A stretch of DNA of 64,000 nucleotides from Turneriella parva DSM 21527. Lineage in GTDB: Bacteria; Spirochaetota; Leptospiria; Turneriellales; Turneriellaceae. The notes beneath the pieces are model-generated. The model saw nothing but the letters and a program-made list of their open reading frames with translations. It ran no database searches and was not told where the DNA came from. Shown here piece by piece: positions 6,967-55,353 of the stretch. The stretch spans positions 868,001-932,000 of the forward strand of contig NC_018020.1 of NCBI RefSeq assembly GCF_000266885.1, read 5' to 3'. The translations under genes and the position numbers were made by a program. Position 1 is the first letter of the stretch. Every line of letters begins with the position of its first letter.

Positions 6967-8334
6967 CTAAAGCGCCGCGCAAACCTCTATAGCCGCTCGC
7001 TCACCCGATTCAATCGCGCCTTCGATATAGCCTATCCATTCGCTCGCGGTTTCGGTGCCGGCGTAGTGCACGCGGCCATGCGGCGCTCTCAGCGAAGCAC
7101 CGAGTTCGGTAAGCGCGCCGGGTGCGGGCAAGCCGACATAACAGCCTTCGCTGAAAGGGTCGGTGATCCAGTCGTGGTCGACGTAGTCGACAGGGTTTTC
7201 GCCCTCAGCACCAAACGCGGCGACGACCGACCGAATTACCTCGCGCCGCCTGCCGTCTGCGTCTGAGCTCCACCTCACGGCCGTCGGGCCATCAAAAAAA
7301 CCGACCAGAATACCGCACGAACCGTCGGCGGGTGACGCGTCGAACATCGGCGAGAAGCCTGCGGTGTTGCTGACAAATTCTCCAGTGAAACCCTGCTCGC
7401 GCCAGAACGGGCGCTTATATGCAATGAGGCACTTGATCACCGAACCCATCGGCATACGCTCACCGAGACGCCGGCGCGCTGTCGTCATCGCATCGCCTTC
7501 GATCTTGCGCGCGAGCGCCGGCGCGACTGCGAGCACGACGCGCTTTGCCTGAATATTGCCTCGTGAGTGGGTGACAACAACACCTTTTGAGGATTGCGTA
7601 ATCTTCTGCACCGGCGCACCAAACAGAATTTTCTGCTGCAGTTTTTTCGCGAGATGCACACTCAGCTGGTGCATGCCGCCTTTGACTGTGGCAGCCTGTG
7701 CGCCGCCTTCGGCAGACGCAAGGTAATTGAAAGAGCCGTTTGCCCTGAGATAAGTGAGAAAATGCAGCATCGACAACTGTCCCGGCTTCGCGCAGAAGAT
7801 TGCGCGCACGCCAATGTCAAAGAGCGCCTGCGCCCCGTCTGATCTGAGCCACCGCCGTTGCCAGTCAGCAACGGTTTGGGTATCGAGATTTGCCAGAGTT
7901 GACTGCCAGGGCACTTTCGGGTCTATTTTTCTCTGCAGTGCGGTAAGCCGCCACAGCGCGAACTGCATTTCTATGAGCGCCCGTACAGACACGGGCGGTA
8001 TGAGTCCCGAGTAATAGCGGGTTTTATTGTTGATCTGCACGAGTTTTTTCCCTACGGAATACTGTGGCACCAGCTCAGCGCCCGCTTCGTGCACAAGCCG
8101 CGTCAGGCGCTCGTGGCCGACACCGACCCACTGCCCACCGGTATCTATCGTACGGCCGAAGAGTTTTCCCGGCCGCGATCTACCCCCAACCCGATCGCGC
8201 GCTTCGATGACCTGAACCTTAAGACCCTGTGCCTCGAGTGCGCGCGCGGCAGTGAGGCCCGCAAAACCCGCGCCGATGACGACGACATCGACACTGCGCG
8301 CGCCCGATCGTCGTGATAACTTATTGCCCTTCAC
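6967..8334 (-). CDS. Flavin monoamine oxidase family protein
   Basis: The 455-residue protein begins with an FAD-binding Rossmann fold, VVVIGAGFAGLTAARALEA, followed by the second dinucleotide motif EARDRVGGRS and the GGQWVG segment typical of amine oxidases. The C-terminal FAD motif YAGTETASEWIGYIEGAIESG is also present. It probably oxidises an amine or a related hydride donor with O2. The start is a GTG. No signal peptide is seen, so it is likely cytoplasmic. Similar flavoproteins are often found near photolyase genes in light-responsive clusters, and a photolyase lies 2.6 kb away, but a functional link is only suggestive. It converges with rlmI with a 6-base gap. Confidence 0.88.
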   Translation of the reverse strand: MKGNKLSRRSGARSVDVVVIGAGFAGLTAARALEAQGLKVQVIEARDRVGGRSRPGKLFGRTIDTGGQWVGVGHERLTRLVHEAGAELVPQYSVGKKLVQINNKTRYYSGLIPPVSVRALIEMQFALWRLTALQRKIDPKVPWQSTLANLDTQTVADWQRRWLRSDGAQALFDIGVRAIFCAKPGQLSMLHFLTYLRANGSFNYLASAEGGAQAATVKGGMHQLSVHLAKKLQQKILFGAPVQKITQSSKGVVVTHSRGNIQAKRVVLAVAPALARKIEGDAMTTARRRLGERMPMGSVIKCLIAYKRPFWREQGFTGEFVSNTAGFSPMFDASPADGSCGILVGFFDGPTAVRWSSDADGRRREVIRSVVAAFGAEGENPVDYVDHDWITDPFSEGCYVGLPAPGALTELGASLRAPHGRVHYAGTETASEWIGYIEGAIESGERAAIEVCAAL

Positions 8335-33601: not shown

Positions 33602-34282
33602 ATGTTGAAACGAATTCTTTCTTTATTCGCTGTGGTGACACTGGCAATGTCCGCAGCATATGCGGCTCCCACAAATTCTGAGGCAGCACTCGCCGACGCG
33701 CGTGAGACTTTTGCAGAACCCGGCGGTTTCGATTACCGCGATGGCTCGCCCGCACTGCTCTTCGACGAATTGCAGCTTGAGCAACAACTCGAAGCCAGAA
33801 AACAGGCGGCTGAGGCAGAGGCGACTACCCAATCAGCTGCAAACGCTGAAGCTAAAAAACCGCAATATGACTATCAAAAAGTTGTGCTGCCGATCGACCG
33901 TGTCGAAGGCGGCAGCTACACGAACCACTCACCGTTCGTCACGTGGGTGAAAGGCGAAAATTCAGACCGCGTCTACCCCGTGCCACCGGGCGTAACCTTT
34001 CCTTGGACCATCGACGGTTTCGCCGACCCCATCAATCGGCCCGGTGAAGTCTATAAGGTGATCGATGGATTACACACGTTCTACAATCTCGTCGATGGTG
34101 AGCCAAGCGTCGAGTTCTCGAGCAACAACAAGCTCGCTGCCATCGCAGGCCTCACCGTAGCACAATCTCTCAAAGGCGGCTGGAAAGACGCAAGCTGGCA
34201 CGCTGAGATTCGCGCGCAGACCGATTTCGGCTGGGACAATCTTTTCGAAATTTCCCGGCCCAACCTGGCATCCAACACATAA
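33602..34282 (+). CDS. Hypothetical exported protein
   Basis: ATG 33602 follows AAGGGG and gives a signal peptide, LKRILSLFAVVTLAMSAAYA, cleaved before APT. The mature 205-residue protein has a Gln/Glu/Ala-rich helical stretch (residues about 60-85) and then a beta-rich part with VEGGSYTNHSPFVTWVKG and WTIDGFADPINRPG. No family is recognised. Its stop codon lies within the A-tract of the terminator of the convergent OmpA-like gene. Periplasmic or surface location is inferred from the signal. Confidence 0.7.
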   Translation: MLKRILSLFAVVTLAMSAAYAAPTNSEAALADARETFAEPGGFDYRDGSPALLFDELQLEQQLEARKQAAEAEATTQSAANAEAKKPQYDYQKVVLPIDRVEGGSYTNHSPFVTWVKGENSDRVYPVPPGVTFPWTIDGFADPINRPGEVYKVIDGLHTFYNLVDGEPSVEFSSNNKLAAIAGLTVAQSLKGGWKDASWHAEIRAQTDFGWDNLFEISRPNLASNT

Positions 34283-34285
34283 AAA

Positions 34286-34327
34286 ACCAACCGACTTTTG
34301 CCGCTAGCCCGGCAAAAGTCAGTTGGT
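34286..34327 (-). terminator. Rho-independent terminator of the OmpA-like gene
   Basis: A stem of 17 paired positions out of 18 (34286-34303 with 34310-34327, loop CTAGCC) is followed on the minus strand by TTTTTT (34281-34286). It sits 27 bases after the OmpA-like stop and between convergent genes, so it may stop transcription from both sides. Confidence 0.85.
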
Positions 34328-53516: not shown

Positions 53517-54164
53517 TCAATCAAGAAACTGGGGCCTGAATACACCCTGAAAAACGGGGTTCTCTGCCACTGGGTGCCACTGGCTTTCGGGCAATGCCTC
53601 CAGGTCAGGTAGCGTGCGAATTCGCAGCTCGGCGCGCGCATCGCCGGTGTGGTAAACCGCAAGCACGCCTGCGCCTGCCCGTACTATCATCATCACATGC
53701 CGAATCTTCAATTCTGCAGAATAAAAATAGAGCAGATCCCCTGTCTTGAGGCGCGCCGGGCGCGCAACGCGTGCAAGGCGATGGCTATGCTGAATCAGCT
53801 GCTGGGCCGTTAGGTTGCCGTTTTGCCAGGCCGATGCAATTTCGGTCAGAAGTTTTGATTTCGCCAGAGCATTGACCGACCGCATCGCCGGATACCTGTC
53901 ATAAAACCGATCGTCATGCTGCTGCATGGCCTCCCAGAAAACGTAACGAACCAGGCCGGCGCAATCGCGGTTGCTTGCGTGCCAACGGTAGTTTGCACCC
54001 TTTGGCTCAAGGCGCAGTACAAGCGGGGTAAAGGCTTCTACGAACGCGCGAAATTTCTGTTGCGAGTCAGCACTTAACTTCAGGTTATCCGCGTAGGCCG
54101 GCGTGCATGCCAGATTCAGGGTAAAAAAAAGCCCCGCAAACGCGGGGCTTTTTCGAAAGATCAT
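53517..54164 (-). CDS. DUF1175 family secreted protein
   Basis: From ATG 54164 the protein has 215 residues with a signal peptide (RKSPAFAGLFF, cleavage after TPAYA). The mature part matches DUF1175: YRWHASNRDCAGLVRYVFWEA, LKTGDLLYFYS, RHVMMIVRAG and VYHTGDAR. The Cys/His placement resembles NlpC/P60-like cysteine peptidases, and the family may act on peptidoglycan. The signal peptide is partly encoded by an intrinsic terminator (54123-54153), so its transcription depends on read-through or its own promoter. Confidence 0.82.
   Translation of the reverse strand: MIFRKSPAFAGLFFTLNLACTPAYADNLKLSADSQQKFRAFVEAFTPLVLRLEPKGANYRWHASNRDCAGLVRYVFWEAMQQHDDRFYDRYPAMRSVNALAKSKLLTEIASAWQNGNLTAQQLIQHSHRLARVARPARLKTGDLLYFYSAELKIRHVMMIVRAGAGVLAVYHTGDARAELRIRTLPDLEALPESQWHPVAENPVFQGVFRPQFLD
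54123..54153 (-). terminator. Intrinsic terminator inside the DUF1175 signal-peptide coding region
   Basis: GCCCCGC (54131-54137) and GCGGGGC (54142-54148) pair over an AAAC loop; A8 (54123-54130) and T5 flank it, so on the minus strand the hairpin is followed by U8. It begins 22 bases after the OmpL47-type stop and lies in the first codons of the DUF1175 gene. This is one of the clearest terminators in the window. Confidence 0.9.
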
Positions 54165-54174
54165 CGGGAGATGA

Positions 54175-55353
54175 TCAGTTCGCTGGTGCAGCAGCTGGCT
54201 CTGCCGGCTTTTCAACAGTTGCGCCACCGACTGGGCGAATTGTTGATTTTGGCGGATTGTCATCGACGATGAAGTCAACGCGAACCGGTTGAGATTCGTT
54301 GCCAACTTTGTCTGACGCCTTCGCTTCGATGCTGTGCGGGCCTTCAGTCTGGAATACCAGCTTACCGCTGTAAATTTGCCATTCTGCAGCGCCGTCAACC
54401 TTTACGAAGATATTCGCGACACCTGATTCAGCATCTTGTGCCTCGACGAGGTAGCTGTTGTCACGCATTGCATATTTCTTGCCGTCGACGTTGATCCAGC
54501 GTTTTGCTGGCGTGATCATCACGACAGGAGGAGTATTCTCTACGTACAGAGAGTTGATAACCGCGAGGTCTTCTGGGCTTGCACCCTGGCCTGGGCTTGA
54601 AGTTGAGAAACCGCTGAGGTTCTCTGACTTGTTGCCGAGGTTGTCAATTGCGCGGTATTTCAGCTGCGCAGCACCCGGCTTATCGAGCACGATGCCGTCT
54701 TTGTATGGCTGCCAGTCAGAACCATTGGTTGAGTACTCAACGCTCTTCACGCCGCTATAGTTATCGGTTGCGCGAATTTCGAGTTTCGTGCCCGGTGCCA
54801 GATAGCGCTTACCATCGATAATAATCGGCGCTTTGTTCAGTGCAAAGTTCATGTATGGGCCGGTGTTATCGATAATCACGTTGAAGATGTTATCTTCTTC
54901 GCGGTTACCGACGCGGTCGACCGAACGGTAAGTAATCTTGTGCGGGCCTTCTTTTTCGAGTGAAAACGGATGACCGTACACTGAGAATGACTGGGTTTCG
55001 TTGATCTTGAATTCGATGTAATCGAGGTTCGAGATGTTATCGGTCGCAGTCAGTTCGAATTTGGCCTGTGACGTTGCATAGGTGTTCTTGCCGTCGTTGT
55101 AAAGGTTGCCAACCTGTGAGTCAGCTGTTGCCGCAGGTGCTGAGCTGCCTGCCGCGCGATCAGTCGCCGCCGGTGCCGTAACGGCCCCGTCGCTCGCCTT
55201 TTCAGCTTCGTCGACTTTTTTCTCTGCGTCTTGCGCAGCTTTATCGGCCGAATCAAGGCCAGACGGATCCAGGTCTTGAGCTATCAGCCACGAAGCTGAG
55301 GCAACAAGAACCAGAAACGCTATTTTCATGGTACGTGTCATGTTCAGTAGCAT
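54175..55353 (-). CDS. OmpL47-type beta-strand repeat protein
   Basis: The start ATG 55353 has AGAGAGGA 5 bases upstream. The protein has a signal peptide (MKIAFLVLVASASWLIA from an inner Met), an Asp/Lys/Ala-rich linker, and three or more OmpL47-type repeats of Ig-like fold with the pattern YSTNGSDWQPYKDG...YRAIDNLGNKSE, each ending in a DxxGN turn. Such repeats are frequent in Leptospira surface proteins. A structural or adhesive role outside the inner membrane is inferred. Its transcript probably ends at 54153-54123. Confidence 0.82.
   Translation of the reverse strand: MLLNMTRTMKIAFLVLVASASWLIAQDLDPSGLDSADKAAQDAEKKVDEAEKASDGAVTAPAATDRAAGSSAPAATADSQVGNLYNDGKNTYATSQAKFELTATDNISNLDYIEFKINETQSFSVYGHPFSLEKEGPHKITYRSVDRVGNREEDNIFNVIIDNTGPYMNFALNKAPIIIDGKRYLAPGTKLEIRATDNYSGVKSVEYSTNGSDWQPYKDGIVLDKPGAAQLKYRAIDNLGNKSENLSGFSTSSPGQGASPEDLAVINSLYVENTPPVVMITPAKRWINVDGKKYAMRDNSYLVEAQDAESGVANIFVKVDGAAEWQIYSGKLVFQTEGPHSIEAKASDKVGNESQPVRVDFIVDDNPPKSTIRPVGGATVEKPAEPAAAPAN

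Follow-up and report, generated by a model that had tools for sequence, protein, structure and literature searches.

A predicted intrinsic terminator that also reads as signal-peptide codons in Turneriella

Can the terminator of one gene serve at the same time as signal-peptide coding sequence of the next? This question is raised by the junction of two minus-strand genes of Turneriella parva (genome of 4,409,302 bp in two contigs), which we analysed in a window of 64,000 nt (G000:C1:868001-932000; positions below are those of the window unless a contig is named). The upstream gene (54175..55353, stop TGA 54177-54175) encodes an OmpL47-type surface or outer-membrane protein of 392 aa, which scores 191 bits with the NCBIfam domain model barrel_OmpL47 (NF047446, cut-off 40) and 242 bits with the Lepto_OmpL47 equivalog (NF047441), slightly below its cut-off of 250. 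The label OmpL47-type, used in the original prediction, is therefore the right name, and OmpL47 proper is borderline. The downstream gene (53517..54164, ATG 54164-54162) begins 10 nt past this stop and encodes a DUF1175 or MagC-like exported protein of 215 aa, matching PF06672 with 85.1 bits (cut-off 27, E 6.5e-24) and also PF00877 (NlpC/P60, E 6.2e-6). Sequence comparison with the PDB gives MagC as its sole relative (7bk8; match over residues 29-214, E 1.1e-11).

The hairpin within the DUF1175 gene

The predicted intrinsic terminator (54123..54153, minus strand) is composed of a 5' arm at 54153-54142 (AAAAAGCCCCGC), a GUUU loop at 54141-54138, the 3' arm GCGGGGC at 54137-54131 and eight U at 54130-54123, so that the G-C-rich stem, the short loop and the directly following U-tract typical of such terminators are all present. 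The full fold (AAAAAGCCCCGC-GUUU-GCGGGGCUUUUU followed by UUU) is a perfect stem of 12 bp, made up of seven G-C and five A-U pairs and closed by a loop of 4 nt, in which five of the eight U are paired. Thus, of the 7-bp G-C stem with U8 originally placed at 54123-54164, the sequence, coordinates and frame stood, but the stem length did not, as the five A-U pairs extend it to 12 bp. The hairpin folds with -22.1 kcal/mol (z -4.7), a stability that was not reached by any of 200 shuffles. It was missed by a consensus terminator scanner, probably as a result of the U-tract being taken up into the stem. Across the 4.41-Mb T. parva genome, GCCCCGC-N3-8-GCGGGGC-T7 has a single match, at the DUF1175 start, and the longer palindrome is likewise single. 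Next to it lies a small perfect hairpin of 7 bp (GAUCAUC-UCCC-GAUGAUC, 54159..54176, minus strand), whose arms contain the DUF1175 AUG and most of the OmpL47 stop codon; as a conserved element it was rejected, being found in T. parva only among the seven Turneriella genomes compared.

Hairpin and U-tract together are codons 5-14 of the DUF1175 gene (AAA AGC CCC GCG TTT GCG GGG CTT TTT TTT), and their bases encode K-S-P-A-F-A-G-L-F-F; the terminator letters are indeed read in frame near the ATG, as had been claimed. The signal-peptide coding region (MIFRKSPAFAGLFFTLNLACTPAYA^DN, 54090..54164, minus strand) has the layout of a Sec signal peptide, MIFRK-SPAFAGLFFTLNLA-CTPAYA^DN, with a charged n-region, a hydrophobic core and small residues before an AYA-D cleavage site that was placed by eye. 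Its best mean hydropathy over 11 residues is 1.71 with the terminator-encoded residues and 0.70 without them.

Conservation of both codes in seven Turneriella genomes

DUF1175 orthologues of 50-67% identity, each with OmpL47 directly upstream, were found in all six further Turneriella genomes compared (the relatives being mostly draft genomes), and the gene is intact in 7/7. The hairpin is kept in all seven (-16.5 to -23.9 kcal/mol) and is followed by exactly eight U in each. It encodes KSPAFAGLFF, KGPALAGLFF, KSPALAGLFF, KGPAFAGLFF, KGLALAGLFF or KSPAILTAGLFF, and ESPTVKTVGLFF in G012, where the stem is largely rebuilt; the loop is 6 nt longer in G009, and the A-tract opposite the U-tract varies and is broken in G007. 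In the seven-genome alignment 98.8% of the stem cells are paired, compared with at most 74% when the stem is slid. Covariation is modest, consisting of one two-sided change that is not significant against shuffles. The U-tract ends 52, 52, 65, 50, 49, 58 and 58 nt past the same-strand OmpL47 stop (range 49-65 nt), shortly after a stop codon as expected of an intrinsic terminator, and this distance is not constant modulo 3. From the U-tract to the protein body the frame is preserved in all seven, despite 11-18 codons of length variation. Core hydropathy ranges from 1.7 to 2.6 and is weaker in every genome once the terminator-encoded residues are removed. The start codon (ATG in three genomes, TTG in two and GTG in two) stands immediately 5' of the hairpin in all except G012, where it lies inside it. 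As both codes are conserved, the dual use of one sequence, as OmpL47 terminator and as DUF1175 signal-peptide codons, is supported.

Synonymous sites allow the two codes to be told apart. Across the seven genomes, the ten hairpin codons form the ten-codon window of the gene with the highest synonymous identity, 91% (135/149); past codon 30 it is 38.3% (738/1929), close to the 37.3% obtained from random draws, so that synonymous sites outside the hairpin are saturated. Among 57 amino-acid-invariant columns, four use a single codon, namely GGG CTT TTT TTT. When each signal peptide was reshuffled with synonymous codons, 0.3-1.2% of the trials matched the observed fold in six genomes and 5.7% did so in G012, where the comparison has little power because the hairpin lies partly 5' of the start. 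Chance folding of a signal peptide with much Ala, Gly, Pro, Lys and Phe, and with no role as RNA, is conceivable, given that signal peptides share a general amino-acid pattern and that Leu-Phe-Phe codons are T-rich by usage (which alone gives a chance of about 0.66 of at least seven T in eight). However, the gap between 91% and 38% in synonymous identity, the restriction of single-codon columns to the hairpin, folds that beat the synonymous shuffles in 6/7 genomes and the different stem of G012 all speak against such a coincidence, which we consider ruled out by synonymous constraint and codon shuffles, with practically no probability left to it. Judged by sequence conservation, the RNA is under a constraint that the protein does not account for. 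Nearly as improbable is that the terminator alone is real and that DUF1175 is not translated through it, owing to a later start or to the gene being dead. The missing Shine-Dalgarno sequence and the ordinary-to-low codon adaptation would suit this reading, but the frame from U-tract to body holds in 7/7, the loop insertion of G009 is a multiple of the codon length (6 nt), the gene is intact throughout, and neither T. parva nor G011 has an ATG, GTG or TTG in the part of the signal peptide that follows the hairpin. The start further downstream that could have contradicted the original prediction is thus missing in these two genomes. Because the frame is conserved, no downstream start exists in T. 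parva and G011, and the hydrophobic core needs the hairpin residues, an exported product requires that the hairpin be translated. An N-terminal extension upstream (TTG at 54398) was rejected, because stops just upstream close this frame in G007 and G008.

Probable termination and read-through

With the hairpin inside the gene, transcription of DUF1175 would require read-through or else a promoter located 5' of the terminator, and the promoter between terminator and gene that had been named as a counter-indication falls away for the same reason. That the 3' end of OmpL47 holds a conserved promoter was considered and rejected: synonymous identity is not raised there (0.35-0.47 in the last 40 columns). 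Codon adaptation, which we use as a proxy for expression, places the T. parva OmpL47-type gene at the 98.7th percentile and DUF1175 at the 31.8th. A Shine-Dalgarno match of at least 4 nt precedes DUF1175 in one of the seven genomes, and such matches are present in most ribosomal-protein genes. In E. coli, terminators within the first 100 nt of open reading frames are close to 100% efficient despite translation, according to the review PMC7858274. Codon usage, the absent Shine-Dalgarno sequence, the weak starts and these E. coli data lend indirect support to the expectation that the gene needs read-through and may be expressed at a low level.

We consider it likely, judging from the sequence features above, that the hairpin is a real terminator of the OmpL47-type gene and attenuates DUF1175, which would be made by read-through only. 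The terminator is predicted to end transcription of a highly expressed OmpL47-type gene, and DUF1175 would be made only by those RNA polymerases that pass the hairpin. As a built-in attenuator, the hairpin would keep the exported DUF1175 protein scarce relative to OmpL47; weak initiation (no Shine-Dalgarno sequence, often TTG or GTG) would lower it further, and selection would now maintain both codes. Termination and its efficiency are inferred here, as are a low expression level of DUF1175 and the evolutionary order.

Two other readings accept the RNA element and assign it a different main role. The attenuator might be conditional, in that a ribosome stopping at the end of OmpL47 and re-initiating 8-34 nt further on would cover the 5' arm and block the hairpin, so that read-through would report translation or growth rate, as in E. 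coli frd-ampC. The start codons immediately upstream of the hairpin, or inside it in G012, the short stop-start spacing and the missing Shine-Dalgarno sequence are what such coupling predicts, and coupled ribosomes can antiterminate intrinsic terminators, with the growth-rate-dependent antitermination of ampC/frd as precedent (PMC6045580 and PMC7858274). On the other hand, the stop-start spacing varies between genomes, no conserved leader or antiterminator structure was seen, and the nearly full efficiency of E. coli terminators at such positions despite translation (PMC7858274) also argues against it; we hold this reading to be unlikely. More doubtful still is that the hairpin acts mainly as a stabiliser or processing signal for the 3' end of OmpL47 mRNA, or as a brake on DUF1175 translation, with termination secondary. 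Terminator hairpins can stabilise upstream mRNA (the subject of PMC11696848), and a stable stem 11 nt past the start codon would be expected to hinder the ribosome, but exactly eight U in 7/7 genomes and the fixed CTT TTT TTT suit termination better than stability alone, and the opposing A-tract is variable, being broken in G007.

A point against the terminator reading is that T. parva has few classical intrinsic terminators: in a sample of 1.66 Mb (L025-L044, L061-L120 and the window) they were found at 30 of 1421 genes (about 2%), compared with 17-21 in reversed-sequence controls at the same threshold, which suggests that most transcripts end by other means (Rho or other). The OmpL47/DUF1175 terminator ranked ninth by score in this survey. 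No second strong terminator-like site in an N-terminal signal peptide was found in the 1.66 Mb, and the idea that terminator signal peptides form a class across the genome was therefore dropped. The same stem with T7 was found at eight further sites in 120 spirochaete genomes, all outside same-strand open reading frames and 7-46 nt from the closest same-strand boundary of one. A scan of genome contigs gave a single Spirochaetota contig, which agrees with the G011 contig in length and in the position of the match. We also observed a terminator-like GCGCCTC-TTGG-GAGGCGC-T9 on the plus strand at G000:C1:167458-167484 (L033, ~7458-7484), which lies in frame in the gene of a membrane-anchored AraC-type regulator and reads VRLLGGAFFFIF between two hydrophobic segments. 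At 34281-34325 (minus strand) an ATG comes directly after a 15-bp hairpin with T6 (CAACTGACTTTTGCCGGGCTAGCGGCAAAAGTCGGTTGGTTTTTTATG), and a T-run with ATG also forms the end of two more terminators of T. parva, located close to C1 132562 and 450990.

Origin of the arrangement and its precedents

Five genomes from four further genera of the family carry a hairpin and U-tract within about 100 nt 3' of their OmpL47 orthologue, and these differ in sequence from the Turneriella hairpin. In these outgroups OmpL47 is not adjoined by DUF1175, which lies on another contig with a different signal peptide and, where checked, next to unrelated genes (PheS, phosphoribosyltransferase-like, AMP-binding, cytochrome-assembly); adjacency of the two genes was seen in Turneriella only, among the genomes compared. 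As the outgroup OmpL47 has a terminator and DUF1175 lies elsewhere, the terminator use is probably older and the signal-peptide use derived, and the simplest order is terminator first, signal-peptide capture later. Another order, in which the terminator was lost and then re-evolved inside the coding region, is possible because the outgroup hairpin sequences differ. The suggestion that signal peptides may arise from terminators thus gains support as to direction, but not from homology of the hairpins across genera. For the capture scenario, the DUF1175 (MagC-like) gene would have come to adjoin the 3' side of the terminator in the Turneriella lineage, and the terminator bases would have turned into the n-region and the first half of the hydrophobic core of its signal peptide. 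We see about equal grounds for and against this fuller account, by which an existing terminator was taken into the reading frame of a gene that had newly come to lie next to it, turned into the signal peptide of that gene and fixed an attenuator within the export signal, the two codes having been inseparable since the genus ancestor.

In E. coli frd/ampC, the hairpin is an untranslated leader. The T. parva junction resembles this system in that an upstream terminator (predicted here) limits a closely packed gene for an exported protein, as summarised for the frd operon and ampC in PMC6045580; in contrast to T. parva, the ampC promoter lies inside the last frd gene. In Burkholderia, where termination was tested, read-through of the nlpD1 terminator gives a low level of the downstream exported protein of penA (PMC6045580), and the hairpin precedes the start codon by 25-73 nt, whereas that of T. 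parva begins 11 nt downstream of the first start-codon base. Being located in codons 5-14, the latter is not an untranslated leader, and we regard it as a variant of both systems. It also resembles the ORF-start terminators of Li et al. 2015 (cited in PMC7858274), for which an efficiency close to 100% is reported, in lying within the first 100 nt of the reading frame; that study, according to the review, measured termination as a function of position in the ORF, whereas the T. parva case is natural, sits in a signal peptide and is conserved in the genus. The protein context differs too, as P. aeruginosa MagC is part of the mag operon (Mag macroglobulin complex, PMC5764988) and the T. parva DUF1175 gene has OmpL47 as neighbour and no mag-like operon. 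Two T. parva alpha-2-macroglobulin (A2M) genes are located at C1 ~0.62 and ~3.32 Mb, far from DUF1175. Upstream terminators that act as attenuators in untranslated leaders are already known; in the open-access literature searched we found no description of a terminator-encoded signal peptide, nor of a conserved terminator inside signal-peptide codons.

Taken together, the locus is a clean case of one sequence with two unrelated codes, kept in seven genomes. Gene-start correction or terminator tools that bar overlap with coding sequence would misplace the DUF1175 start or miss the terminator. The reading of an A-tract, a G-C stem and a U-tract as Lys, Pro/Ala/Gly and Leu/Phe offers a testable route for the birth of an export signal and, if a terminator was indeed captured as a signal peptide in Turneriella, this would be one way in which signal peptides originate.
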